DNA from: Crambe crambe
Taxonomy: Eukaryota; Porifera; Demospongiae; Poecilosclerida; Crambeidae
NCBI GenBank assembly: GCA_963924555.1
Contig: OZ004581.1
Coordinates: forward strand, 992,001 to 1,056,000
Length of the DNA stretch: 64,000 nt
Direction of reading: 5' to 3'
The position numbers and the translations under genes were made by a program. Under the pieces are notes generated by a model. The model saw only the letters and a list, made by a program, of their open reading frames with translations. It had not been told where the DNA came from and did no database searches. Of the stretch, positions 25,201-54,108 are shown piece after piece. Position 1 is the first letter of the stretch. Each line of letters starts with the position of its first letter.

Positions 25201-27888
25201 TGCATGGAATTCAACTTCTTCTGGAGTTCAGACACCTGTTGACTCAACAAGCTGCAAAATCTGTCTTTAACCTAATGAAAAAATATATGATGAATTTATT
25301 AATTAAGATCTATTTGCACTCAGTTCATCATTTGCTATAATCAATCCTCGACCAAATTTCACATTTAAAATACCAGCAGAGAGTTATCACCCACACTCTA
25401 CCAGCTGATTTTTGAAACTTAATTTAGAATTGATCGAGTTATAGCAGTTATAATGAATGATCAAACGATAAGTGAAGGCTAATATTGAAAAGGGGAAATT
25501 ATGAAGCCAACTTGCTGAAGCCAGTTCAAGGCGTGTTGCATAGCAACCATCTAATCACTGCCTAATTTCTACATTGTCATCGATTTTTGATTAATCTTCT
25601 TGTACACAACCATCTTCATAACAAAGTATGAATATCAAAGAAAATGCACCCTTGGGATTAGTGCAACAGGAAAAATAATGACCTTTGAGACTGGCTGTAT
25701 CAGGAATACTGTGGACAGGACACTCTGAAAGAGGATGAACCTCTTAACCAAAAGGTGTCAGTGTATATATACACTCTATATAAAATAACCTCCTAAAGAG
25801 GACAACCTCTCAAGTGTGTCTATTATTTGGAGGTTCTACATCAGTAGTGGTCCAGAGATGGTGGCATCGCACAGAATAGACTTAATGGACACGGGGAACT
25901 GTACTAACTTAGGGGACGCCTCTCCATCACATGGAATTCCAAAGAAGTTATCCCTTTTAAAAACGTACCGCTGCCATCTGCTGCATCTTTATCAATTGTC
26001 TCTTTAGAGGACCTGTATCAGTCACACTGGCCGGGAGGGACATCCCTCCCCCCTCTAACGCACTCTCCTCCTCTCCGCTAGAAGTGAGCTCCATGATCTG
26101 ATTACGAAGCGTGTCTATCTCCTTCTTCTGCTGCTCGATAAACTCTTCCAGCTGGGTAGTTTTCTACATCAGAAAAAAAAAAGAAAAAAATAGAGTATAT
26201 ATTACGCAAGTGTGAAGTGGTCAGAAAGATCAAAAGTCCCTCTAGGACCATATTGTAAAGTATCTCATCCCTCTAGGACCATATTGTAAAGTATCTCAAG
26301 GGTTAAAGTCCCTCTAGGACCATATTGTAAAGTATCTCAAGGGTTAAAGTCCCTCTAGGACCATATTGTAAAGTATCTCAAGGGTTAAAGTCCCTCTAGG
26401 ACCATATTGTAAAGTATCTCAAGGGTTAAAGTCCCTCTAGGACCATATTGTAAAGTATCTCAAGGGTTAAAGTCCCTCTAGGACCATATTGTAAGGTATC
26501 TCAAGGGTTAAAGTCATATTGTAAGGTATCTCAAGGGTTAAAGTCCCTCTAAGACCATATTGTAAGGTATCTCAAGGGTTAAAGTCCCTCTAGGACCATA
26601 TTGTAAGGTATCTCAAGGGTTAAAGTCCCTCTAGGACCATATTGTAAGGGTTAAAGTATGTGAAAAAGGCCACCTCAATCCAAATTGGCTTTAGTTTTCT
26701 CCCTATGGTTTTTATTTTTTGAGGAAATAAATTATAATCACAAAAAATCAAAATTCCCATTTCCTCCTTAAAAGTAGTGGTACCAGAGAAAGCAAGCAGT
26801 GATAATTATTGGATAAACAGTAGCTTAACTGACAGCTGTGATAATTTACTGAGGCTGGGAGGTTATGTCCCTTGTGGGTTTGTTTGGGTCAAAAAAATTA
26901 AATTCATGGGTCTTCAGGAACGGATGGTTTGTATTGCCTACAACCTTCACTTTCAGAGTGTAAGTAGTAACCATGGCATTTTGGGGGTATCCAAGAGCAG
27001 GCTGGTCACGTACAAACTTTGACCTCTTAGATAACTGTTAGTATAAAAAGTGGAATGCATTCCCTCATCTTGAAATACCTCAAGGTGGGTATCAATTCTG
27101 AACTAAGTGAAATTTTCATTTGGGGGGGGGGGGGGGGGGGGGGGGGCAGGTATTTCCTTTTCATGTTAATTCAAGTAGAACATGTTATTGCTACACTTAA
27201 TTAACTCTCAAGCTTTGATGCAAAGGGAGGGGGAAGCTACTTACTGGGTTTTCCCCAGGCTTTAATCCCACTTATTACAGACTCATTAACCTCCAGGCTT
27301 TTAGTAGTTCTTGGGCTGCTGGAGACTAAATGTTGACAGGATCCCAACATCCATTAGGATGAGCATATTAAAGGATACCACTGTTATGTAGTGCAAACCA
27401 TACACATGATAATGCAACATCTACTCTTTCTCTCTTACCACTGCTTCCAAATAACCAGTCGATCCCTTCTTCTGTAAACTATTAACAGTCTTCTTCAGTT
27501 CTGAATTCTCCTGCATCAGAGTTTCCAAAATTTGCCGGGAAGGTCCCGGTATGAACGGGGACTGCCCGGGCTTTGCGCTGGGGATGCTACTGTTCTTTTG
27601 CGACTTGATCTGCCTTTCGAAATTGGCACATCTGTTTTCCAAACGCACCACAGAGACTTCTAGTCTCTTATTCCTCTCTTTCAAAACTGTGACCAACTCG
27701 TTCCGATCTTGCAACAAACGTGCAAGCTCATTCACTCCGAGAATTCGCAGCTGTAATTGATGGTTTTCCTCTCTCAGCTTCTGACATTGATAGTCCAACT
27801 CCTCAACAGTCATGTCTGACTTGTTCTGAAAGATGAAAGAGGGAAGCTCGCTCAGCGGATAAGCAGGGGCCTTCTCCATATCGGTCAT
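19492..27888 (-). CDS. Coiled-coil scaffold-like protein with proline-rich tail, paralogue A
   Basis: The family is not recognised. Twelve exons keep phase: 27439-27888, 25969-26163, 25113-25271, 22530-22716, 22278-22474, 22026-22193, 21696-21806, 21294-21440, 20981-21099, 20669-20841, 20073-20367 and 19492-19687, giving 798 residues. Residues 25-480 are mostly heptad-rich coiled coil broken by short linkers (SPFIPGPSRQILETLMQENS near 115, an acidic ESALEGGG linker near 190). Residues 520-798 are a low-complexity Pro/Ser/Gly/Met tail with SRSQSQ and PPPYGGRG words and no domain. The layout (coiled coil plus disordered tail) is that of an adaptor such as TNIP or NEMO-type proteins, but no diagnostic ubiquitin-binding motif was found, so no function is assigned. 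Paralogue B at 37328-40997 shares exon order, phases and long identical runs. Introns are heavily invaded by minisatellites and hairpins. Confidence 0.82.
19787..19910. repeat. Perfect 61-bp inverted repeat with 2-nt loop
   Basis: Left arm 19787-19847 and right arm 19850-19910 are exact reverse complements, separated by CT. It lies in the last intron of coiled-coil paralogue A, so its transcript would fold into a 61-bp perfect duplex. It encodes nothing and matches no other repeat seen in the window. Confidence 0.95.
20396..20645. repeat. Minisatellite, about 74-bp unit, 3 copies
   Basis: The unit has 'tgtcctggatatagagggtg' and 'cagagagtccacagtgagag' followed by 'gttccactgtgttag'. It is intronic in coiled-coil paralogue A. 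The same unit forms the larger array at 23818-24370 in another intron of that gene. Confidence 0.92.
22726..22752. repeat. (AAT)n microsatellite
   Basis: Nine AAT units directly beside the 3' splice site of exon 4 of coiled-coil paralogue A. A (GA)n run at 22197-22232 sits in the same position at exon 6. Confidence 0.9.
23818..24370. repeat. Minisatellite, about 74-bp unit, 7 copies
   Basis: Same unit as at 20396-20645. One copy has an internal partial duplication near 24270-24295, consistent with slippage. Copies are near-identical, so the array is young. Confidence 0.94.
25690..25845. mobile_element. Family-B hairpin element, intronic copy
   Basis: It carries 'aaaataacctcctaaagagg' and 'gtctattatttggaggttc' in the order typical of the family, in reverse orientation relative to the copy at 35279. 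It is intronic in coiled-coil paralogue A. Confidence 0.7.
26220..26655. repeat. Minisatellite, about 42-bp unit, 10 copies
   Basis: The unit is 'gtccctctaggaccatattg' plus 'taaagtatctcaagggttaaa'. Copies are nearly identical, with a shared A-to-G change in the later half. Intronic. The even spacing is CRISPR-like only in appearance, as there are no unique spacers. Confidence 0.94.
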
Positions 27889-29648
27889 TTCTGACGTTCT
27901 CTCTCTTTTTTAGAGTTTATACAGTGGGTGATTTTTTTTTCCTGAAAAAAAATATTTCAGCTTTGAAATTGAAGGTAGCTATTTTTGTTTTTGGTGAAGC
28001 TAGAAAAAGAAAGAGAAACAAAACTCGTCACGACATACCTTCATTATAATCATCATTAACTACATACACATGTAAGAGTTCAAGCAATTCCAGCTTCTTT
28101 ACAGTCAGCACTGTACTGTTGCCAAGAAGCCAAAAGTATGTAAACAATGGAGTTGCATATCCTTATCATATCCTCCCCAAGAGAGGATATTGAGATAAAT
28201 CTCAGACATAACCTTTCTCTTGGATCATTCCCTAACACAGAGCCAGTATGCTGCCTGTACAGCCATTGGGGCTATAAATGAAATCACAATAGGAACAGTA
28301 CCCTGCCTACTACGCTATTAGTCAATGGTCTGAAATCACAACAAAATTAGAGCTGAATGATAATTTTTCAAGAAAATATTTTGCTAGGTAGATGTTGGCC
28401 ATCACCTACACAGCGAAAAATCTACAACTTGTAACAGGTCTGGACTGCCCCACATACCAGTTATAACCTGTACACTGTAACAGGTCGAAGTCTGTAACAG
28501 GTCTGTATTTTTGGACTGTATCAGACCTGTTGACCCACCAACTGCCTACAGATCAAAAATTAGTATACCAGAATGTAGTAGATTTTTCGCTGTGTAGGCT
28601 ACTTATTGCCCCTAGTCATACAGCTTACAGCTAACGAACAAGTGATTCAGGCCCTCTTGATCCTAGCCATTACAGGTTGTTGAATAACCCTAGACCTAAT
28701 GATAGACTTGTTACAATGCCCCCACAGCTTAAAGTTATGCAGGCTGTCTTATCAATGACCTATTGTCTACTCACTAGTAATTGTGTACTTACACTTACCG
28801 TTGGTTATACAATAGCGATGATTCAGCAGCTACTGTAGATTGATAGCTTGAATCCTGAGAATTCGAATGGCGAAGCTGGGATATCGCACGATATTATATC
28901 CACCAGCAAGTGCTGACTAGTTCTGACTTCACCCAGGTGGTAAGATATGATATATCCAGCTAACAAACGAATAACGCAAGCACTTACAGTCTTAGGCAGA
29001 GATGATAAAATCCAGTTCAGGGGAGGCCCAACAGATGATCTTCGCCTCGCTTTTCCTCACAGGGATAATAAATGTCTGAGGTCACTTGCCGCTACGACCA
29101 AATACTGTCTATGACCTCAGACTCCCGTACTTCCCCTGGTTCCCACGCTTTCAAATAACACCATTCATAGAAGAGGGCCAAATTTAGTCACTGACTTGTA
29201 AGCTAAGCTTGATTTATACGAGTGACTCAAGTGTTCAGTAAGACTCCGATCTTATTTCAGCTATTAGTTTTTGGCTGTAAACCTACTGTACTATACTAGA
29301 CCACCTGCCCTTTAATACATCACACACTTTCAACTTTGCACGCTGCCGTCTAGCTAATTTCCCGGGGGTCCCCCAGCTAGCTAGCTAGAATTAGATCATG
29401 CATCGAGCGCGCACGCGCGAACGCGCGCGCTTACCCGGTACGCGGTACCGGTACCGTACCCATGCGCAGAATAGTGCCGAGTCAGCAAATAATAATAATT
29501 ATCAAAAAACGATTTTTTATGTTTTGAAGCTAGAAATATGAGCTTATCGGAGTATCCAGTCAATATGATAGGGTTGTAGTAGTTCTACTACATCATACTT
29601 CCCATATGGAGAACAATGACTCTATTAAGAAATAGTTGCTAGCAAAAG
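27889..29648. other. Divergent intergenic region between coiled-coil A (-) and WSCD-c (+)
   Basis: It likely contains both promoters and 5' non-coding exons, which cannot be placed without RNA data. It holds a TIR element (28405-28598) and a CpG-rich block at 29395-29465 with nested palindromes (CGCGCGCGC, GGTACCGGTACC), the most CpG-rich spot in this part of the window. Confidence 0.6.
28405..28598. mobile_element. Small TIR element (194 bp, 21-bp perfect TIRs)
   Basis: The exact 21-bp inverted ends (28405-28425 and 28578-28598) begin CCTACACAGCG. The interior has internal repeats of 'taacaggtct' and 'cagacctgtt' and no coding potential. It looks like a MITE. No target duplication is evident. 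Confidence 0.88.
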
Positions 29649-34273: not shown

Positions 34274-37000
34274 TCATTTATACTTCTCTGAAATCCGCAA
34301 AGCGATTCTCTGATCAATGACTGTCACTGCTTCTACCAATGACTGCCACGTTGGAGGAACAGTCACTCGTTTCAGCCAGAGTTTCAACATCTCACGCAAA
34401 CAGTTCTGTGGCTCATCATAGCTGCACTTGATATTGGCTAGTTCATCGCTTGATATCCCCAGGAAGACGCCGAGGTTCTCCCAAGCGTGTGCAACTGGGT
34501 AGAGAATGCGAAACGCCTCACTGAGTGATGGGTTTGCCAGAGTCTGTGAGGTTAGGGTTAGGGAGAGAGGAGGAGAAGAAGTGTCACTGGTAGAAGTCTG
34601 TGACTGTGGTGGATTAGCCATGGAAGATTCAGAAACTGTATATGTATATGTAATGTAATGTAATGTAATGTAATGTAATGTAATGTAATGTAATGTAATG
34701 TAATGTAATGTAATGTAATGTAATGTAATGTAATGTATATGTAACTGTATATGTAGAGGTAAGTAATGAAGATGACTTTAGCTATATACAGTAAAGCCTC
34801 CGAATAATGGACACACTTGGGACCCAGCCCTTTTGTCCTTTGTACAGAGGTTATCTTCTTTTGGAGGTTATTTTACATAATTATAGTTACATTAGAGCCT
34901 GTCCTCCATTGTTTAAAGGTTTGTCCCCTTTTGGAGTGTCTTTTATTGCCATATTAGTAGCTAGCTCGTGATCCGGCACAGATCACAAGTGCTCTTTTTC
35001 GTTAATCATCATGTGATCATCACATGTCCTCACTTACCTGGTATAGGGACTTTGATGTTATAAGAGAGATTTGTATCCAGTCCAGAGACTCCAAGCCTAA
35101 TGCTTGCCTGAGGCTGGATCACAGAGTATCGAATGGAAAGAGTCGGAGGATAGGGGTACTTTGAGATGTCCCTGTGCAACTCCTCAGGCAGATCAATATG
35201 TCTTCTCAAGATCTAAATATAAAGTCATGTGACAGTCATGTGATAGTCATGTGAAAGAAGAGTAAAGATGCAATTGAGACAGTGAAATCTCTGAATAATG
35301 GACACACTGGGGACCAAGCATTTTGTCCTTTGTAGAGAGGTTGTCCTCTTTTGGAGGTTATTTTGTATAGAGATATACACTCAGAGGTACTGTCCTTTGT
35401 TGAGAGGTTTGTCCTCTAGCTTTCAAAGTGTCCTTTGACAGAGGTTCCACTGTAGTATTTGGAATGTTACAAGCTGCTTCAACTAACAGTAGCAGGTTCA
35501 GTTTCAAAGATGATATCCCATCCTTTCCCATCCACCACACAGAGAGTAACTTCCTCTGATTCAAGCTGAACAGTGCGCTCACTCAGTTCCCAACCCTGAG
35601 CACTCTCCTTCATAACTGTTCTGTCACAATGCTGTATGCATGCATCATGATAATATGTGACAGTCTATAGTTCCATGTAGATTTATCCACTTTTTAAACT
35701 TTGGCTCCCCATAACTCATGACTACTAGTGGCCATAGTCTGGAAATTTGGTGTAGAGATAGCCTAACCATTATAGAACACATGACAGAAGTTTGGAACTA
35801 ATTCATCAAAGCATATTTGAGAAATAAGCAGTATAATCAGGTATATTAAATTAATGCCCACCAACCTTCTACTATTGCAATATAAATTAAGTACCTCAGT
35901 GTACACTTCTTGGTATAAACAGACACAGAATTTCGCTAAGTGTCTGGATAAGTTCTTGTAAAGCCTCGCAGAATAGAGCGTTTCTATAACCACACACACA
36001 TAATACATACATACATACATACATAGATACATACATATATACAATTGCAAATCAAATTTTATAGAAAGCTGTCATTTTTATGAATAAGCTAATACAGTGG
36101 AACCTCTGATGAAGGACACTCTGAAGGAGGACAAACCTCTCAATAAAGGACAATCTAAAAGTACCTACACTCTAACCTCCAAAAGAGGACAACCTCTTTA
36201 CAAAGGATAAAAGGATGGGTCCCAAGTTGTGTCCATTATTTCTATGTTCCACTTTTTAATCATTTCATCTTTATGATTTACCGTTGCTCCTCTTAAATCC
36301 AGGAATTATTGAATCAGATTCTCGTTTTCGTTTACCCACTCTGATCAACAGAAATGCTTGAGGGCAATCTCTCCCACTTGACATCCTGGTCTGAACACTC
36401 CCTTGGGTCCTTTGATTTCTTTGAAGATGTGCATTGATTTCGACTCTCTCAAAGCTGGTGTGGAGCTGGCTGAAAGAAACACCATATCACCACAGTCTTC
36501 CTCACTCTCTAGGCGAGCGTAGTGATCTATTTTGACTGTTACGTCATTTAAAAACTCGACTTTTCTGCTGTATTTGATCATGTAAACCGGGCTTGCTGAC
36601 TTGTAACCGTCTGGTAATTTGAATGGCCCGCCGATACAAGGATGAACGGACAGCGTGACACTTTCCTCTGTAGGACCGAGAGAGTTTTTAGGGATGGTTA
36701 GGTGAATTCCTGGTCCCTTAAGAGACACTTCTTTGAACGATGTTATTTCACACTCCATGGGTTCCTGATGGAATACGATTTCAGAACAAGTGCCTAAAAG
36801 TAGAGAAGAATAGTACACAATTAGCCATTCTTTAGTATATTATTGTTACTGAACCATTGGACCATTGGACTATCTTCACATCAAATTTAAGTCTACAAAG
36901 CAAGTGTGTTCTGTAATTGTTGGACTATTTGAGTTATGGAGAGCTAAAGTGTGAAGAAGTGAAAATGTACTACCTGAAAACATGCAGAGTACTTACCCAT
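34274..37000 (-). CDS. ZU5-UPA-Death domain protein (PIDD/UNC5-tail-like), one apparent frame break
   Basis: Predicted cytosolic death-fold signalling protein. Exons: 36997-37000 (ATG G), 36282-36793, 35895-35983, 35488-35631, 35038-35212 and 34274-34635. Exon 2 encodes a ZU5 domain (GPGIHLTIPKNSL, GPFKLPDGYKSASPVYMIKY, DMVFLSASS, GVFRPGCQVGEIALKHFC). Exons 3-5 form the UPA-like part (CLYQEVYTE, WDIIFETEPAT, YPPTLSIRYSV). Exon 6 is a Death domain (LGVFLGISSDELANIKCSYDEP, LKLWLKR, PTWQSLVEAV). Every junction matches the receptor gene at 48244-54108. Within exon 2, just after KHFC (about 36345), the frame stops, but the next frame reads IRVGKRKRESDS, aligned with LGKRKREP of the paralogue. This fits a one-base loss in a T run, an assembly error or a young pseudogene. 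The four-base first exon is inferred. Confidence 0.75.
34651..34736. repeat. (TAATG)n microsatellite
   Basis: About 17 copies of a pentamer sit directly upstream (on the coding strand) of the Death-domain exon of the ZU5-UPA-Death gene, about 15 nt from the 3' splice site. Confidence 0.95.
34790..34960. mobile_element. Family-B hairpin element
   Basis: It reads 'aataatggacacacttggga', 'gtcctttgtacagaggttat', 'ttttggaggttattttaca', in an intron of the ZU5-UPA-Death gene. Confidence 0.78.
35279..35458. mobile_element. Family-B hairpin element, reference full copy
   Basis: The most complete copy, about 180 bp: 'cagtgaaatctctgaataat' at the left and 'gacagaggttccactgta' at the right, which pair as inverted ends. 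The interior pairs 'gtagagaggttgtcctcttt' with later 'gttgagaggtttgtcctct' as direct half-repeats. No coding capacity. Confidence 0.85.
36094..36255. mobile_element. Family-B hairpin element, full copy
   Basis: It starts 'cagtggaacctctgatgaag' and ends 'gtccattatttctatgttcc', in the reverse orientation to the copy at 35279. It lies in the next intron of the same ZU5-UPA-Death gene. Confidence 0.85.
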
Positions 37001-37327
37001 ATCTTTGCCTCCTTCTTCTCTTTCTCTGCTAATTAATGATCATTTTACTCCATCATACAAAATAGAAAGAATACAAGATTGGGAAAATGAAGTGTGCAAG
37101 TGTGCTTTAATAAATAATTATTTAAGCAAAAATGGGATGATGGTCATTTTCCACGAATTATACAAAGAGTGTTCCCAACTCGACATTCTTCACCAAAAAA
37201 CTTTCATAGTCATGCCAAGATAGCACTCACTGTCTAGATATGGTACAATACCTAATTGATACTCTGACAAGTGCCAGGGTGACATTTTGGGTGACATTTT
37301 GGGTACTGTAGGTGGATTAACTTAAGC

Positions 37328-40300
37328 TTACCTCAAAATGGCATGCTGTGTTCCTCTATGTACTCCGGGTCCCACTCTCTTGGGGGTAAATGAGGACAAC
37401 GGATAATAATGAGACCTTGTACCAAAAACAGCATGCCCTCTATTTCCATCTCTCTCCCTATCTCCATACATAGGATGAGTGAATATGCCCCCAACGTTCC
37501 TATGGGGCGGTGGGATACCTAAAGCAGAACCTCTAGGAGTCACAGAATGAGGGGGAGATATTTTTTCTTTTCCTCTCTGTTCCATGTCTGGATGCATGTA
37601 AGTTGATGGTCCATACATAGGATGAGTGAATATGCCCCCAACGTTCCTATGGGGCGGTGGGATACCTAAAGCAGAACTTCTAGGAGTCACAGAATGAGGG
37701 GGAGATATTTCTTCTTTTCCTCTCTGTTCCATGTCTGGATGCATGTAAGTTGATGGTGGACTGTTGAGGGGAAATGTCAGATACATTTACATATATGTAA
37801 ATTCACATGCATGTTGTGTACAGTATACTACTACATGCATAGGTACATGTACATTAATGTTATGTAATTACCACATGCATGTTATTATTATACATAGCAT
37901 GTTATGAACAGCATGTTATGTAACACAGTGCATGTAGCCATACATGCATGTTATGAAACTTATGATACAGCATGTTGTACATGTAACTACCACATGCATG
38001 TTGTTAGTATATGTACAGCATGTCACATGGGAATTCACATGTACATATTACATACATGGATGAGGTTTATTATGCATTATATGACACAATACCTCATGCT
38101 TGTCACATGAATACCACATGCATGTTACATGAATACCACATGTATGTCACAGGGACTCATCTTAAAACACACCCACCCTGAGTTTGATGGTGGTAGCTGC
38201 TGAGGCTCTGGCTCTTGCAGAGGAAACTTGCTTTGACTTATGAGGCCCGGCTGGAAGGAGGGAAAGGAATGGATGACCTGATTATAATGGATGGCATGGT
38301 CCACATTGATTGTAGCAGTGTACCAAAGCACAAAAAATTTCCACACAATTCTTAACCACATGAAAATTTTGTATGTGTTGTTGTTGTTGTTGTCATCATT
38401 GTTATGGTTGTTGTTGTTGTTGTCATCATTGTTATGGTTGTTGTTGTTGTTGTTGTTGCTGCTGCTGCTGTTATTTGTACCTTGAGTTTTAGGGAGTCCA
38501 CATTGGCATGTATGTATGTACCTTGATTAGAGGAGGATTTTTTTTAATGTGTACCTTGAGTCGGTTGATTGTGTTGCTCATCTCAAATTTCTTCATTTTC
38601 ATCTCTTCAGTGGTAATTGATAAGTCAGCCTGTAAACCAGCAACCTAAACATGGAGGGAAAGAGAGAGGGAGGGAGAGGGAGAGAGGGAGGGAGGGAGAG
38701 AGAGGGAGAGAGAGAGGGAGGGAGAGAGAGAGAGAGGGAGGGAGGGAGAAGTAAAATGAAGTCACAGTGTAATGGGGACCTTTATTCCATTGACTTACTA
38801 GATCTGCTACCTTCAGTGATTTACCTTCAGTGATTACATACGTATATACATTACCTGAGTTTTCAACTCTGAAATTTCGATCTCTTTCTGTTCAAGTTCT
38901 TTCTTGGATTTATAATTTTGACTCTCAGCTATCATACAATTCAAGGAAGAGTCTTCCAGCTCTTTTTTCATTGAGCTCAATTCCTTTGAGTAGTCTTCAG
39001 CCTAGTGAGTGAGTGAGTGAGTGAGTGAGTGGGTGAGTGTGTGTGTGAGTGAGTGAGTGAGTGAGTGAGTGAGTGAGTGATAGCCTCGTTCCCAGGCCTT
39101 CCTCTCTCACTGGTATAGTCTCTCATGAAGAAAAGCTAAAGTATTGCGGAGACTACCAATGAGAGAGGAAGGCCTGGGGATGAGGCTAAGTGAGTGAGTG
39201 AGTGGGGAGGGAGAGAGAGATTAAAACTGTTCTGTTCCATTTCTTAAAAAATCCTATCAAACCTGTTTGTCCATGGTCTTCTGTAGTTCCAACAGCTCCT
39301 TCTGTAGACTCCCCACGTCATCTCCCCTAGAATCCACCTCACGTGCCCGGTCCAACTCAGACTTTAGAGACTTGTTTTTTGAGTGAAGATTCTCACACTG
39401 AAGTAGAGTATCAGTACGGAGTTGCACCATCTCTTCAATCTTATCTTCAAGTTCACCTGAGAGGATCAAGTTGTGAAAATGACGTACATAGAAGCTTTTA
39501 AGTTACATCAAGAGCACCTTTTTCCTTAGACAAATTCTTTATGTCTTCCTTGAGCTGATGAATCTCGCCGAGATACTTGGCCTTCATTTTAGTGCAGATA
39601 TATAATACATTACAGGTCACATATCTTAATTAACAGGCCACATATCTTAATTAACAGGTCACATATCTTAATTAACAGGGTTCTCCTCATAATAATATGT
39701 GATAGTACTTGAGAAAAGTGTGCAAAACATTAAAGGCTGTTAAATGCTTGTAAAGTTTACAAGCTAGGTATACATGATATGTAAAATTCGATTGAGTATA
39801 ACTTGGGAAGAAAATCTTTAGAATGATACTGATAACTCCGTTTTGAATTTTTTGCTCCATAAGACCCCTTTTCTCTCAAGTACTAATCTTAATCAACAGG
39901 GTTCTCCTTATATTGTTATGATACGATAATGATCAAAGGAACATGTGCTAGATTGATCCTTCACCCTCTCTATTCAATTAAGAGAAGACTACCTTAAATT
40001 TACCTCTATATCAACATCAGTGTCACCACTCCCTGACATCTTGACCCCAGCCACCTCACCCTGCATGGATTTCAACTTCTTCTGGAGCTCAGTCACCTGC
40101 TGACTCAGCACACTGCAAAACCTGTCCCTTACCTGATAGGATATGGGTCTAGTAGTAAATAGTAAAAGTTATGCACCTGTATGACTAACGTACTGCCATC
40201 ATCTGCTGCATCTTGATCAATCGTCTCTTCAGAGGACCTGTATCAGTTACACTGCCAGGGAGGGACAATGGTCCTCCTCCTTCTCCTCCTTCTCCTCCTC

Positions 40301-40997
40301 CTAATGCACTCTCCTCCTCCCCACTGGAAGTGAGCTCCATGATCTGACTACGTAGTGTGTCTATCTCCTTCTTCTGCTGCTCGATAAACTCTTCCAGCTG
40401 GGTGGTTTTCTACATCAGGAAAAGTAAGGTCATTACCATGGAGATAAAGATCAAAAAGGGTTGTTATACATACCTCCATAAAAGGCTAACACAGGTTAAA
40501 GGTCAGCACAGGGGTTAAAGGTGAATATAGCTAGCAAAAGTAACTAACTAAGCCATTTCCCCCTCTCTTACAACTGCTTCCAAATAACCGGTCAATCCCT
40601 TCTTCTGTAAATTATTAATAGCCTTCTTCAGTTCTGAGTTCTCCTGCATCAAAGTTTCCAAAATTTTCCGGGAAGGTCCCGGGATGAACGGGGACTGCTC
40701 AGGCCTTGTACTACTAGTACTACCACTCCTTAGTGATTCAATCAGCCTTTCCAAACGCACAACAGAGGCTTCAAGTTGTCTATTCTTCTCTTTCAGAACA
40801 AAGACCGACTCATTTTGGTCTTGCAGCAAACGTGAAAGCTCATTCACTCCAACGTTTCGCTGTCGAAGTTGCTGCTGAAGTCGCTGGTTCTCCTCCCTCA
40901 GTCTTTGGCATTGAGAGCTCAAGTCCTCCTCATTAGTCAACCCAGAATCCTCCTCACCCGGGGAAGTCATCAGGAAACTGTATGACACACCACACAA
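37328..40997 (-). CDS. Coiled-coil scaffold-like protein, paralogue B
   Basis: The family is not recognised; it is a paralogue of the gene at 19492-27888. Exons: 40572-40970 (or -40997), 40194-40409, 40004-40132, 39518-39581, 39263-39456, 38855-39001, 38555-38644, 38177-38250 and 37328-37760, giving 581 residues from the ATG at 40970 (nine more from 40997). Coiled coil covers about 15-430, with the same marker words as paralogue A (QSPFIPGPSRKILETLMQ, KTTQLEEFIEQQKKEID, LQKELLELQKTMDKQ). Exon 4 is shorter than in A and has a weak 3' splice site, so the piece between exons 3 and 4 may have been lost. The tail differs: a 49-residue segment (PSTYMHPDMEQ to THPMYG) is present twice, almost identical in DNA (37470-37760), so the duplication is recent. 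The last codons AGG TAA overlap a GTAAGC donor, so one more downstream exon is possible. Confidence 0.78.
38377..38475. repeat. (TTG)n-rich microsatellite
   Basis: Two near-identical 33-bp blocks of TTG with 'tcatcattgttatgg', then TTG and CTG units. Intronic in coiled-coil paralogue B. Confidence 0.88.
39005..39080. repeat. (GTGA)n microsatellite
   Basis: Tetranucleotide repeat immediately beside the 3' splice site of exon 6 of coiled-coil paralogue B. A purine-rich GGGAGA run at 38652-38750 sits the same way at exon 7. Confidence 0.9.
39081..39188. mobile_element. Family-C hairpin element (108 bp)
   Basis: Inverted ends of about 29 bp ('tagcctcgttcccaggcctt' at the left, its complement with two mismatches at the right) plus an inner pair 'tagtctc/gagacta'. 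It is inserted in the GTGA repeat of coiled-coil paralogue B. A degraded relative may lie at 21897-22010. Confidence 0.82.
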
Positions 40998-42325: not shown

Positions 42326-42696
42326 AGGCCACACCAAGTCAATTATTAGTTTCTGGTCCCCCGCCCGCCTGCTAATCGCGCTCGCGGGAATTTGGGACTA
42401 TAATGATATGTAGCAAAAGAAGTAGAAGAACAGAGGACCTCGTGCGTGTTGTGTGAAATAATTATTGTGAAATGTTGTACTAGTTGCTCCACCAGCCATG
42501 CCTTTGATCAACGTAGAACTGTTATATCTGAACATTCTACCTAGTCTGGCGGCGCAGCCCCGAGCGCGCGCGAGCGCGAGGGTCTGGAATCACATAATAC
42601 TTCGAGTTGTTCCTTTATCAGAAAACCTGATAAATGAATGAATATCATTAATTTACGTGTTATGAGTCATAATGAGTCACGACATAGAATGACCTA

Positions 42697-43229
42697 TTGA
42701 CCTTTCTGAACGTTATGGCAACTAACCCAACTAACCTGAAAGAAGCAGCTACCCATGCTGCAGCGAAGCTGGGATATCAAGGGTTGAAGGAAGAGCAACT
42801 AGAGGTTCTGATAGCATTCCTATCTGGGAGAGATGTTTTTGCCGTCCTTCCCACAGGATTCGGGAAAAGCTTGTGCTATGCATGTCTTCCTCTTGCTTTT
42901 GAAGAGATAGAATCTTCACCAGCTGATCAGAAACCTATAGTGATTGTTGTGAGCCCATTAATTGTTATCATGAAAGATCAGGTAAATACTAGCTGTAAAT
43001 GAGCAGATTAGTGCAGCCGGTTATGCAGTTTTTAATATTCATACTAAGCAAGTCAAAGATGTGTTTATCTCTCATGGCACTGCAGGTGGATAGCTTCAGC
43101 AAAAGAGGGCTTTCTGTTGCTTGTGTTACTGGAGGTCGTGAGGATACTTCAATGAAGAAAGGGGTGCATGCTGGAGAGTATCAGTTGGTATTCATCACTC
43201 CAGAGTTATTGCTAGATAGCAATGAATGA
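42697..43229 (+). pseudogene. RecQ-like helicase, N-terminal fragment
   Basis: Two exons, 42697-42981 and 43086-43229, join in phase. The Walker A motif reads LPTGFGKSLCYACLPLAF, motif Ia reads IVVSPLIVIMKDQV, and exon 2 gives SVACVTGG and YQLVFITPELLLDSNE. The DEAH box and everything after it are missing: the frame ends just after FITPELLL, where the facing DUF6589-like gene begins. The left TIR lies 100-370 bp upstream and may carry its promoter. RecQ-like fragments of this type belong to mobile DNA, not to host repair genes, which is inferred from the TIR setting. Confidence 0.85.
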
Positions 43230-45889: not shown

Positions 45890-46983
45890 CATGTATAAAC
45901 CATCAATAACCATCGATAGCCATATATAATTAACCATATTAACCATGTATAAGCAACTAACTACCATCAATAATCATAATATTATGTATAATTCCTTAAC
46001 CATGTATAAACCATCAATAACCATAATAACCGTCAATAATAGGCTACTAATGTACTATCATATATATAGGCTACTAATGTACCAGCAATAACCATGGATA
46101 ACCATGAATAACCATGCATAACCAGCAATAACCATGAATAACCATGGATAACCACGGATAACCATGAATAACCATGAATAACCATATATAACCATGCATA
46201 ACCAGCAATACCCATGGATAACCATGAATAACCATGCATAACCAGCAATAACCATGAATAACCATGGATAACCATGGATAACCATGGATAACCATGGATA
46301 ACCATGGATAACCATGGATAACCATGGATAACCATAAATAACCATGGATAACCATGGATAACCAGGAATAACCATAAATAACCATGAATAACCATAAATA
46401 ACCATGCATAACCAGCAATAACCATGGATAACCAGCAATAACCATGGATAACCAACAATAACCATGAATAACCATAAATAACCATGCATAACCAGCAATA
46501 ACCATGGATAACCAGCAATAACCAGCAATAACCATGGATAACCAGCAATAACCATGGATAACCATGAATAACCATGCATAACCAGCAATAACCATGAATA
46601 ACCATGGATAACCATGGATAACCATGGATAACCATGGATAACCATGGATAACCATAAATAACCATGGATAACCATGGATAACCAGGAATAACCATAAATA
46701 ACCATGAATAACCATAAATAACCATGCATAACCAGCAATAACCATGGATAACCAGCAATAACCATGGATAACCAGCAATAACCATGAATAACCATAAATA
46801 ACCATGCATAACCAGCAATAACCATGGATAACCAGCAATAACCATGGATAACCATGAATAACCATAAATAACCATGGATAACCATGGATAACCAGCAATA
46901 ACCATGGATAACCATGAATAACCATGCATAACCAGCAATAACCATGAATAACCATGGATAACCATGAATAACCATGCATAATC
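45890..46983 (-). repeat. 10-bp minisatellite, right (reverse) array, about 1 kb
   Basis: About 95 units of ACCATGNATA/ACCAGCAATA on the plus strand. Variants (GG, GA, GC, AA, CAGC) alternate in higher-order blocks: 46230-46560 and 46560-46850 are similar strings. Because the period is 10, all three minus-strand frames stay open for about 300 codons (VIHGYPWL-type repeats). These are artefacts. Confidence 0.95.
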
Positions 46984-48243: not shown

Positions 48244-51200
48244 TTAATGATGCTTTTCGATCTCCAATGCAACATCATTGCGGTGAACCAAAACATCTCT
48301 CAGGGCCTTGCAGAGGTTGGTCCATGATGGTGACTCACTCCCTTTCCTCTTGAACCATTGGTCTACAACTTCCTTTACACACTGCCTCACATCGCCAGGG
48401 TTATTAGTCTTAATGGTGTCAATATCTGATTCGGATAATCCAAGAGCTTCTGCTAAGTCATTCCATTCCTTTGTTATGCCCTGCAGTGCTATCTTCACAC
48501 CACGACGACCTTCATTAAATAGAGTTGTGTGAAATATGGTCATAATTTGTAGAGAGTATAGTTGACCCTTTACCAACCATAGTTGGTAAAGGGTAGAGAG
48601 GAGGATAAGTAGCATACTAGGATGCAGAATAATAACTCACTTATTGGAGAATTTTCATCCTGATGATCTCTTATAGGACCTAATTTAAAAAATATATATT
48701 GTAGCTATAATTATAGTGGTTAATAATTGAACATCCATGGAAATTTCCAACTTCTCTGGAGTTGCATGAGTGAATACACTCTTGTAGATAATATCATTGT
48801 AATTTATTCATCAACAGAAAGAATATCTATATCACTAAGAGTCTAAGACTAAACATTCCTGCAGCAGCAGTGCTGTAAGTACTAACATCTTTAACTGCAA
48901 AGGGTCAGAGGAAGAAAAATATTGCTTAGTACATACCTGGTATGGATACAGATGTATCATCAGCAACAGTTATAGTGAAATATTGATCCTTTTCAGTAGT
49001 TCCCAAAATATTCACGTTGTACTCCAGTGGGTTGACAATAGACACTTTCTTCAACCATCTGGCCTCTATCTCACAGTGAGGTACAGTTTCCTTCACATTT
49101 TCAGTGTCATCGACATCCCTCTTACGTACCTGATATGTTGGGTGAAGTTTATGCAGTTAGCTACAGGCTCAAGATGAAATACCTTTGGGAATTTTGTAGG
49201 ATAGAGTCTCCATTCATCATGTAGAGTGCAGCCTGTTGTAGGCAGATCTAACTTAATCTCATCACCTTCAAAATACAGTGGTTGATCCGTTCCAGGCTGA
49301 GCATTTTTTGAGGAATACTGTTTCCTAACAGTCTATATTACAAAGAATACAATAAGATAGTATGCCATGCTACAGGGAAAGAGTAATAATTTTGGTGAAG
49401 AAAACTCTGAAATCTAGCTATCCCTATACCCCTCAGTTGTGGTAGCCAGATCCTACAGCCCAACAGAATCATTCTGGCACTCTAGTATTTATATAAACTT
49501 ACAATCACATGTGCATCATCATGCCATGTTACAGCAAAATGTATTTTTCTACGTATATGGGGTCCCATGTAGAATACACTTGACCAGTAGCGGCGTTTAT
49601 CAGATCCCTCCTGTACTACAGCAAGTCCACTAAAGCGATCCAGAGGTATGACTCCATAGGAAGTATATTCATTGAAAATCCCTCCAGGAATGACTTTGAA
49701 GGAGTATGGAAGATGTTTCTGGCTACACAAAGCTCTGGCCATGGAGAGACGGGAGGTATTTTCAGGTGGAGCACAATGCTGAATCTCCAAAATGAGTGGC
49801 TTTTGGAATTTACAACTTGGCACACATTTTAACCAAAAGACTGGACTGACTAGCACCATTTTCTCTGGAAAGGCATACTTGCCACATAGAGAGGCTTTTA
49901 TGGTGATTTTGCAGGTACTAATATCTTTTGGTAGAGCATTGACAGGGATTGTAAGCCTTAAGCCATAGTCTTCCCAAAAAAAGTGTTTGGAAAAGCCATT
50001 AAAGACATCAATAGTTACTGTTTGGATCACCATCACTCGTTTCAAATCAATATCCATACTAGCTGCTAAAAATTAATAATACAAAACATAATTATTAATG
50101 AGACCAAGGTAAGTAATAGTCTGAGATGCCTACAATAATGCAGTGGTGAACTTTTCTATTAATTATAACAGACTCTGAGGAACCTCTGGCTAGCTACAAC
50201 CCTAAGGCACAGATTGATCTTTTTTTTCCTTCCAGCTATAGAAAAATGCAATTCAAAAGTATTTACGAAGGATAGCCTCTCAGACTCTGTGTAAATTATA
50301 GATCATGAAACCGAGTAGTACTCACTTGAGTGATCTAACCCAGCTTAAAACAATTAAAGCATTCACTGCAACAACACAGCTCAATTGTAAATGAAGACAT
50401 AATATTAATACTTACATGAAAGATAAGGTTTGAGTAAAGGAGATTGTGAGTCAGTTGGGATTCCTTTAAATGCAACAGTGCCTGGAAGTGAGCAAGAGGA
50501 TTGTTACTCAACCCGGCATGCAACAGGCATTCTCCAATTACTTACTTGGCATGTTATAAGAGAGCTCTCTATTTAATCCAGTGACTTTCAGTTTGATACT
50601 TGGCTGCGGATGAGTCACAGAGTAAGAAATGGAGAGACTTGGAGGATATGGAACATCCTCCTGTGACTGATTAGATAGATCAACATCTTGTCTTGAGATC
50701 TAAGAAGAATTTAAGCACCTTATTATATAAATTACTGCCTATAGTCTAGCTATAAATGGTCAGAAGACTAACCATGGCAGGTTCTCCTATAGTGATGTCC
50801 CACCCTTTATGTCCACCGTCTACACAAAGAGAAACTTCCTCCGATGTTAGCTGAACAGTGCATTCATGACTTAACTGCCATCCTTCCTTCATAACCACTT
50901 CGTCACAATGCTGTATGCACATAATACGCAAAAATACTGACAATCATGCTCAAAAGATTGAAGAGGGAATCTTGCTTGCATTACGACTATATACCTTGAT
51001 GTATACTTCATGGTATAAACATATGCAGAATTTCACCAAGTTTTGGGATATATTTTGGTACATCCTTGCAGAATACTCTATAGATTGAAAAGAATGATAA
51101 ACATGACAGTCATGTTAATCGTTATTATACTTTTTTTAATCCCAGATCCAGGAAATGGTGGTTCCCTTTTTCTCTTGCCTAAGCATAAACAGAAATTTCG

Positions 51201-54108
51201 ACATTCAGGTTTGAACACTCCATTGACTACTTCTATTTCTTTGAAGAAATACTTAGACACCCTTAAGACTGGAGCTGAGAGAAATACCATATCTTCACGG
51301 TCCTCTTCACTCTCCAGACAAGCATAGTTATTGATCCTGACTTTTATGTCATTCTGTAATTTTACTTCTCTGCCAAGTTTGATCAGGTAAACAGGACTTG
51401 CTGCTTCATAACCATCTGGCAATTTGAATGGCCCACTGATACAAGGATGAACAGACACTGTGGCACGTTCCTCTGTAGGATTCAGCGAGTTTTCAGGGAT
51501 GGTCAGAAAAATACCTGGTCCCTTGATAGTAACTTTTTCAAGTGAAATTTCCACTTGTATGGGTTCCTGAAGGAATATTATTTCCGGAGTACCTACGAAT
51601 AACAGTTACTTTGTGGTAAATGATTTAGAGGATCATGCAGCCATTATAGTATTACACAAGTTTCCCTACATGCATCTATAGTTAACTTCCTTTGTAATCC
51701 TAATACCCATTATACATACCTGTATCCATAATTCTCTCTCTCAGTCTGTACACAGTAGCAATAATCACTTGAAGAAATTTCAAATACTCATAGTGAACTG
51801 CTAAATACATTATCATAAGTAGAGGGAGGAATAGTAGCACATATAGAATGATTGATGCAAAAAGAGGTGGCTGACTACTTTGAGATGTGGCATAAATAAA
51901 TACGTTGACAATGGCCAAGTCAGCTAAGATACAAGTAGTCACTAGATTCAAGACATTGTTTTCTCTTTTATATGGCTGACAATAGGCTATAAGAGTGGCC
52001 ATAAGTATGGTAGCTATCTGTTGTATAGCGAAGCTTTGTAACCATGAGCCACTCAAAACAGTGGAAACATTGATGGTTAAATGGAAAAGAAAAAAAAATC
52101 CAGCAAAGAAACGAAAGTGCTTCTTGTAAAATTCTAGAAAGTTGTCTATATGTGCAACCTTTCCCTGATCATCATCGATGAAATAAGCATAGACCAAAAG
52201 AAGTGTTGGAATAAATAAAACAAGTAAAATAAAGGCTAGAACTAATATTAGTATAGGCCAACCTTCAGGTATAGTTGGTTCTTCATGTTGCAGGTACAGG
52301 GACCTTTTGTCTAGACCTAGATTAACTCCTATGATATACGATGAAGCGAGGCTGAACTTGGAATATGAAAGGAGAAGAGAAGTTGGTACAAGTGATTCAG
52401 TGTTTTGTACCGCAGGGAAAAAAATCAGAAAATAGTTATTCAATATGGAAATCCAAATCAGGGGAAATAGTGCAATTCCATCATTCAATAATAAAAAACT
52501 TGTAGTCCAATTCAAACAGACCGTGGGGAAAATTTTTTCAATGAAGTCAAAGTTGAATAAGCCATAAAAAAATTTATAACTATTCATTATTAAATCTTGA
52601 CTTCCATCTTCAAAATCGAGAGCACTTGTAACCACATGTGAGTAAAGAATAAAGGCATGAGCTGGGCCACTAGTAAGGCGAATATCAAATAAGGCAAGTA
52701 TTAGAAATACAATAGTATAAGAGAAGCCTTTTAAAACAAAGTATAGAGCAAGGCTACGGGTATGGATATTAGTACAGCCAATTGAAGAGTCATCAGTAAA
52801 CGTGCTTGTGCGTTTGAAAATGATAGATCCTGAACTAGTGAACCTGCTATCAGTGGTGTTAATAGGTTCTGATGCTACCATATCTATAACACCACCTAGT
52901 TTACCCAAGTTGTCTTGAAATGTTACATTTGTTATTTTCAGAAATATTTCCTTATAAGCTGCTTCTTTCAGACTCTGATCAAGAGCTGTCGATACTAATA
53001 GACCGCCTCCATACATTGCTGTATTAGAAAGAAACTCACTGTGGGCTATTTCAATATAATTACCTGTGTGATTATTACTTGCAAGATCAAAGCTAGACAT
53101 GTATCCAATTCTCATTCCACCTCCAGTTCCAGTACCGGGACACTTATTGTGGCTCAAAGTACAGTTCGTAACATAAGCTGAGTTATTTGCTGCACTATCG
53201 TGAAAGTCTATAAAAAGTCCACCACCCCACTGTGCCATATTGTTCGTGAAATGACAGCCAGATATATTAAATAGATTATTCATAGCAGCCCCTTTCATGA
53301 ACACAGATAACCCTCCCCCTCGGCCAAAAGCCTCATGGTATATACTAGCATTCTTTTCGATTCCATTCCTTTTGGCAATATTGTTTAAAAAAATTGAATT
53401 TCTGATGGAATAGTACGCTCCATCAATTTGATTTCTACTGCCTTGGTTATGGTATGAAAATTCCACATAGACCCCACCACCTCCATAATGATGATGCGAT
53501 ACACTATTGTTCATAAACACACTATCTAAGATAGTGTTGGTTCCTGTCGTATCATACATAACCACACCTGTTGCATTAGGACTGAAACTAACATTTACTT
53601 GTCTCATGCTGACATTGTCACACGACTCGAAGTAAAGGCCGACTTTAAACTTAGAGAACACTAATGAATCAACACTTACATTTCTACTCGTGCTCTCTCT
53701 TGTTGCAGCACAGTGCAAGAAAGTCACATTTGTGATGTCAATAGTCATTACATCAATAAAGGCTAATCCAATTTCTTCTCCATCGCATTCAATAACCGAT
53801 CCCTTACCTCCAAGAATTGTGAGAAATTTGAGATCTTTAAAAGGAGCCACTGTTTTTTTAAGTTTGTAGATAGTATCTTCCTCAAGAATAAAAGTGGCCA
53901 TTGTGTTCTTTGGATATAAACTAAACTTAAAGGCATAATCAAGAGTCTCACATGCGACACCAGAGGAATTTGAAGTCAGACAATAGGAGTCGTCTATTCC
54001 ATTGATTGGATCGATGTAAATATTATTGCGGAACATATACGGCGGTATCTCACCATTTGTCACACAAATCAGCTCAATAAGAGCAATAATACTAGCAAAC
54101 AGACTCAT
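48244..54108 (-). CDS. Beta-helix multi-pass receptor with ZU5-UPA-ZU5-UPA-Death tail
   Basis: Predicted surface receptor with a death-fold signalling tail. Eleven exons keep phase: 51720-54108, 51131-51592, 50995-51077, 50773-50910, 50546-50699, 50416-50481, 49503-50065, 49183-49332, 48937-49129, 48641-48679 and 48244-48509, giving 1500 residues. Signal peptide 1-20. Residues 25-440: Asn-glycosylation-rich ectodomain with beta-helix turns (ISGCHFTNNMAQWGGGLF, IAHSEFLSNTAMYGGGLL, ITNVTFQDNLGKLGG). Residues 450-790: 7-8 hydrophobic segments ending near YCQPYKRENN and VLLFLPLLMIMYLAV. Residues 797-950: ZU5 (GPGIFLTIPENSL, GPFKLPDGYEAASPVYLIK). Residues 951-1097: UPA-like. Residues 1098-1285: second ZU5 (GLRLTIPVNALP). 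Residues 1286-1400: second UPA-like part. Residues 1425-1490: Death domain (LAEALGLSESDIDTIK, PSWTNLCKAL). The large exon joins the ZU5 exon in phase (ACA G|GT ACT), which is the key link. Alternatively, exon 1 could end as its own short product at 51700. Confidence 0.8.
48565..48594. repeat. Short perfect hairpin in last intron of receptor gene
   Basis: 13-bp arms (accctttaccaac and its complement) around a CATA loop, about 55 nt upstream of the Death-exon 3' splice site on the coding strand. It could hide or expose the splice site. Confidence 0.85.

Follow-up and report, generated by a model that had tools for sequence, protein, structure and literature searches.

The sponge Crambe crambe carries a predicted gene that joins a receptor-like first exon to a tail of ZU5 and Death domain exons. 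It lies at 54108-48244 on the minus strand of a 64,000-nucleotide stretch of GenBank assembly GCA_963924555.1 (contig OZ004581.1, positions 992,001 to 1,056,000), hereafter called the window. Eleven exons combine into an unbroken frame of 1,496 codons and a stop, running from an ATG at 54108 to a stop codon that ends at 48244, and all ten introns are GT-AG and leave the frame intact. Exon 1 (51720..54108) encodes a leader (residues 1-20), an ectodomain (residues ~29-440), a polytopic membrane part (~450-776) and a short basic end predicted to be cytosolic. Its phase-1 donor at 51720 meets the acceptor at 51592 across a 127-nucleotide GT-AG intron (51593..51719) that lacks the words AATAAA, ATTAAA and TATAAA; unspliced, the frame stops after MYNGY. 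Exon 2 (51131..51592) encodes the first ZU5 domain (ZU5-1), with candidate cleavage site NF-C. The post-ZU5-1 region spans exons 3 (51007..51077), 4 (50773..50910) and 5 (50546..50699), a UPA domain being assigned to exon 3 by position only, and exon 6 (50416..50481) is a linker. Exon 7 (49503..50065) encodes the second ZU5 domain (ZU5-2), with candidate site RF-S, followed by the post-ZU5-2 exons 8 (49183..49332), which is UPA-sized and not UPA by sequence, and 9 (48937..49129). A 39-nucleotide linker, exon 10 (48641..48679), leads to exon 11 (48244..48509), which encodes the Death domain and the stop. Because exons 2-6 form a block with phase 1 at both borders, they could have been inserted as one unit. 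The in-phase arrangement of one large exon and ten small ones, proposed in a first-pass annotation of the window, is thus confirmed with exact coordinates.

That annotation also placed two ZU5 domains in the tail, together with a Death domain, and both assignments hold. Exon 7 matches the Pfam ZU5 hidden Markov model (HMM; PF00791) at 31.4 bits against a cut-off of 21 (2.4e-7; 1.8e-8 in the spliced tail). Exon 2 alone has no Pfam ZU5 match and is a ZU5 domain by homology only: the other six of its seven aligned family members match the Pfam model, and profile-profile alignment with hhalign pairs the ZU5-1 family with ZU5-2 (probability 98.6, E = 1.4e-15). A search of the PDB with exon 7 gave no match. 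Exon 11 matches Pfam Death (PF00531) at 44.3 bits against a cut-off of 22.6 (2e-11), and the solved chain closest to it is CRADD (2.5e-6), followed among natural proteins by RIPK1 and FADD.

The two UPA domains of the first-pass model fared differently. Pfam UPA (PF17217) matched neither the spliced tail nor the post-ZU5-2 regions, and a PDB profile search with the post-ZU5-2 region gave no support for UPA. A Pfam search for UPA across the genome returned nothing, as did its controls. Global hhalign comparison of this region with the UPA domains of NLRP1 and CARD8 returned a probability of 0.1, and the local score was equalled by 157 of 200 shuffles, with profiles shallow enough to leave room for remote homology. 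Between the RF-S site and the close of exon 9 lie 157 residues, about the size of a UPA domain, and the likeness goes no further. Separately, one of five post-ZU5-2 regions of relatives gave a weak ubiquitin match (0.0061) in the part that corresponds to exon 8 and the final stretch of exon 7 (window 49183-49503), and designed ubiquitin variants headed the PDB profile list for the post-ZU5-2 region (E = 0.16).

The receptor half begins with a hydrophobic, signal-peptide-like leader and contains 14 N-glycosylation sequons in residues 21-440 and 2 in residues 441-796. For the ectodomain, which the first-pass model took as beta-helix-like, the repeats find support. It has six motif ends of a pattern like that of polymorphic membrane proteins, where 2,000 shuffles give 0.10 on average and never more than 2, for a pattern composed only after the sequence had been inspected. 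The Pfam model Chlam_PMP scores the window protein at 20.3 bits, just below its cut-off of 20.6. A relative encoded on another contig, C12, reaches 27.7 bits, and its best stretch (552-569), like those of the other above-cut-off matches among relatives, falls in a region missing from the window protein. Chlam_PMP matches four of six family members (E up to 0.1), and a PDB profile search with the exon-1 family found no match.

After the ectodomain come ten hydrophobic segments, seven strong and three weak. Because lysine and arginine are more numerous in the loops that follow membrane segments 3, 5 and 7, taken together, than in those after segments 4 and 6 in all six family members (10 versus 0 in the window protein), the C-terminus most likely lies inside the cell. 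With the N-terminus outside and the tail inside, the number of passes would be odd. Hydrophobic segments and loop charges together support the earlier proposal of a polytopic membrane part with an internal tail, the C-terminus being probably inside. At E up to 0.1, Pfam searches with the six family members matched four families, none by name a G-protein-coupled receptor or a channel.

This receptor half belongs to a large family in the sponge's own genome, with at least 36 copies scored when the C12 receptor was the query, one of them interrupted by stops. Eleven relatives share 33-59% identity with exon 1 in the beta-helix part, and five share 28-39% in the membrane part. Among the ZU5 matches listed, a ZU5 domain lies directly downstream on the same strand in two of the 36 scored copies, the window gene and the C12 gene (L021); the next nearest listed ZU5 to any scored receptor copy is 18.3 kb away, on contig C5. 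Copies and ZU5 places were drawn from best-candidate lists, which leaves room for further fused copies.

The C12 gene repeats the design of the window gene. A 1,292-codon open receptor frame reaches just beyond a phase-1 donor, for which there are two candidates. The intron after it joins phase 1 to phase 1 and, at 80 or 92 nucleotides, offers little room for a polyadenylation (polyA) site and a promoter. The C12 ZU5 exon is 62% identical to window exon 7, two homologous exons come next, and by our reading a short linker exon then leads to a final exon that is Death-like. Because the same design recurs elsewhere in the genome, a misread or chance neighbour is unlikely. The exon phases, the complete predicted frame and this second copy of the fusion on another contig all support the annotation of a single gene.

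Unfused relatives have a different ending. All four of those available in full (L022-L025) have, instead of ZU5-Death, a mutually similar tail of their own, and none has a listed ZU5 within 18 kb. Their cytosolic tail shares the pattern [L/F]F-x-RAE-xx-N, which is absent from both fused genes. As for the ZU5 exons, all five genes examined keep the phase series 1-0-0-1 across exons 7-9, with similar exon lengths, and in three of these (C5, 2.47 Mb) the flank examined shows nothing matching exon 1. The same three C5 genes have a long upstream open frame that appears death-domain-like by eye. Among the matches listed, the closest ZU5-1 relative of exon 2 lies on the same strand at a distance of 14 kb and is 65% identical.

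The ratio of nonsynonymous to synonymous substitution (dN/dS) lies between 0.19 and 0.41 in all seven pairs compared (0.36-0.41 for exon 1 and 0.19-0.35 for ZU5-2), with dS above 1 in the three receptor pairs. The trees disagree on how the fused genes are related. In the receptor protein tree the window gene falls among three genes of C5 and C12 stays outside (92/91), and forcing the fused pair into a clade is not rejected (approximately unbiased (AU) test, p = 0.11). The ZU5-2 protein tree is without resolution (fused pair as a clade, AU p = 0.268), and the DNA tree of exons 7-9 places the window gene with C5 (81/83; fused pair, AU p = 0.142). In the receptor DNA tree the two fused genes come together at 67, and their ZU5-2 synonymous distance is the lowest of three pairs (0.65 versus 0.96 and 0.97). 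Their last exons match different subfamilies, a result compatible with one fusion or two: the window Death domain is 73-79% identical to its eleven best copies on contig C8, and the C12 last exon is 66-68% identical to two copies adjoining C5 ZU5 genes. Because the trees disagree and the last exons differ, one fusion with later exchange and two separate fusions both stand as candidate histories.

Both ZU5 domains of the window protein end in Phe followed by a potential nucleophile, RF-S in ZU5-2 and NF-C in ZU5-1, and hhalign superposes the two sites. Among 123 genome matches listed, all ten ZU5-2 exons examined have Phe followed by Ser (five) or Cys (five), with His before the Phe in four. 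ZU5-1-type sequences, among 150 matches listed, have F-C in four of ten cases and SLQ or SLR in six. According to PMC3210808, the cut in PIDD, NLRP1 and CARD8 falls between Phe and Ser where ZU5 ends, the His of HF-S is termed functionally important, and altering the residue before Phe in Nup98 and CARD8 has only a slight effect. Acyl-shift chemistry suggests that Cys could stand in for Ser as the nucleophile. A self-cutting tail is plausible, since both window ZU5 domains keep F-[S/C] where those three proteins cut themselves.

Elsewhere in the window, at 34274-40970 on the minus strand, what appears by eye to be one gene combines coiled-coil exons with a ZU5 exon scoring 22.4 bits, exons of post-ZU5 type and, at 6.8e-8, a Death domain. 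Its ZU5 frame stops right after HFC, where two relatives continue, and looks frame-broken or mis-sequenced. A dispersed repeat around AAAAGRGGACAAMCYTC has ten matches in the window at up to two mismatches (0.11 expected). Four of these sites fall between exons of this ZU5 gene (34916, 35336, 36123 and 36181), and the repeat also appears by eye in L021. Two similar coiled-coil exons on the minus strand, at 27424-27909 and 40551-40970, have a PFIPGPSR motif in common; on the former, a centrosomin N-motif match reaches 23 bits, below the cut-off of 28.5. The window also contains a 20-base minisatellite of 44.8 copies (46087-46981), covered by long open frames in all three minus-strand frames, and a DEAD helicase fragment (42688-42999, plus strand; 1e-9) that is RecQ-like by eye.

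Combining these observations, we think it probable that the locus is one gene for a plasma-membrane receptor, with a beta-helix-like ectodomain, a polytopic part and a tail in which two ZU5 domains precede a Death domain, assembled by exon shuffling. A single transcript would join the receptor and ZU5/Death exons, giving a glycosylated ectodomain, a membrane part that crosses seven (or nine) times and a tail in the cytosol. A phase-1-bounded cassette of ZU5/Death exons would have been joined to the end of a receptor from the large family, replacing the family's own tail. The ectodomain could bind a carbohydrate or a microbial surface pattern, and the ZU5 domains could cut themselves at x-F-[S/C]. 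Activation might then expose or release the Death tail, which would recruit Death-domain adaptors (CRADD/FADD-like) and lead to caspase or NF-kappaB signalling. The protein may thus be a surface receptor whose Death tail is possibly self-cut and held until activation.

We hold a stronger version of this proposal to be rather unlikely. Here the protein would be a ligand-gated membrane counterpart of PIDD and NLRP1: both ZU5 domains would cut themselves (at NF-C and RF-S), and the Death tail would be held non-covalently until binding by the ectodomain freed it. ZU5-Death cassettes would then be plug-in outputs on varied sensors, among them the beta-helix receptor, coiled coils and other N-terminal parts.

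About equally doubtful is the alternative that the tail is an anchor or scaffold of ankyrin or UNC5 type, engaged in neither self-cleavage nor death signalling. Ankyrins do serve as anchors, and the six SLQ or SLR sequences of ZU5-1 type would suit such a role. The available portions of PMC3210808 likewise give UNC5b a Leu (Leu-677) in place of Phe at the cleavage position. Against this, Phe and a nucleophile are kept in both window ZU5 domains.

Several observations weigh against the favoured reading of a working receptor with a ZU5-Death output. As a Death domain, the last exon of C12 reaches only 13.3 bits, where the cut-off is 22.6; both candidate cleavage sites depart from HF-S; and the UPA domains are placed by position only, unsupported by HMM or profile comparison. 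The topology also has a difficulty. A plain seven-pass model puts the loop after segment 1 inside and the long loop after segment 2 outside, and in all six family members the latter has at least as many lysines and arginines as the former. The pass count in the first half is unsure for this reason, and weak hydrophobic segments near this second loop may also cross the membrane. Finally, window exon 1 lacks ~400 residues that relatives have between the beta-helix and membrane parts, and it sits on a long branch (1.08), so it may be under relaxed constraint. This last point, with the changed first residue of HF-S, would suit a real fusion that is decaying or serves as a decoy, a shortened, fast-evolving copy with its signalling lost. 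We judge this less likely than an anchor, against the 1,496 codons without a stop, the dN/dS values of both exon 1 and ZU5-2, and a Death domain well above its cut-off.

Least probable is a pair of adjacent genes, in which a receptor would end with the stop that follows MYNGY (~51700) and an independent ZU5-Death gene would lie downstream: unfused relatives do finish within one exon and unspliced intron 1 does reach a stop at once, but the family's tail is missing from the window exon, the same join recurs in the same phase across the short C12 intron, and the exon 2 open frame (51605-51078) has no ATG ahead of the ZU5 core, which means that a second gene would have to start from a leader exon not seen here. 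The 127 nucleotides of intron 1, free of polyA and TATA words, also speak against two genes, although polyA words decide little because none occurs within 500 nucleotides past the last exon either.

Sponges are a setting in which shuffled death-fold proteins are to be expected, on the strength of two reports. The first (PMC8195603, eLife 2021) covers 357 TRADD-N proteins of the sponge Amphimedon; up to half of them are reported to have unique architectures, mostly with Death-like domains, and autoproteolysis is predicted for ZU5/FIIND forms. The accessible text of the second, on a 2026 sponge genome, counts 128 Death-containing genes, with NACHT-ZU5 among the recurring architectures (PMC12909245). 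Our literature search, whose scope excluded most subscription papers, preprints and supplements, found no beta-helix or polytopic receptor with ZU5-Death. No relatives were confirmed among viral and prokaryotic contigs, a result that says little about other animals. As far as we could search, the novelty lies in the combination of parts; ZU5-Death proteins are themselves a known kind. The term "new receptor class" from the first-pass annotation is too strong, since the receptor half comes from a large family, the tail half from very large ZU5 and Death families, and sponges are known for unique death-domain architectures (PMC8195603).

Four comparisons define the predicted protein. Its nearest kin by exon 1 is the beta-helix/polytopic receptor family of its own genome, in which the four unfused members available in full carry another tail. 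UNC5 has an Ig/TSP1 ectodomain and one membrane pass, and PIDD1 is a cytosolic protein with leucine-rich repeats and two ZU5 domains followed by Death. Like UNC5, the sponge protein would be a membrane receptor with cytosolic ZU5 and Death domains. It differs in its beta-helix-like ectodomain, many passes (at least seven hydrophobic segments, with no Pfam match to Ig or TSP1 in the window protein), two ZU5 domains and Phe plus Ser/Cys where the available portions of PMC3210808 give UNC5b Leu-677. With PIDD1 it shares two ZU5 domains followed by Death and a candidate self-cleavage site in each ZU5, whereas it has a leader and membrane part, no Pfam match to leucine-rich repeats, and RF-S and NF-C rather than HF-S. 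NLRP1 and CARD8 resemble it in the FIIND order of a ZU5 with an x-F-S site, a ~150-residue region and a death-fold domain; here, however, similarity to UPA is no better than in shuffles, the last domain is Death rather than CARD, and the protein is a predicted membrane receptor. The genome would thus encode, twice, a single protein that couples a ZU5-Death output to a polytopic membrane domain and to a pattern-type fold outside the cell. Cleavage at x-F-[S/C] poses a concrete question: do self-cutting ZU5 tails, as in the cytosolic proteins PIDD, NLRP1 and CARD8, also operate in surface receptors of an early-branching animal?

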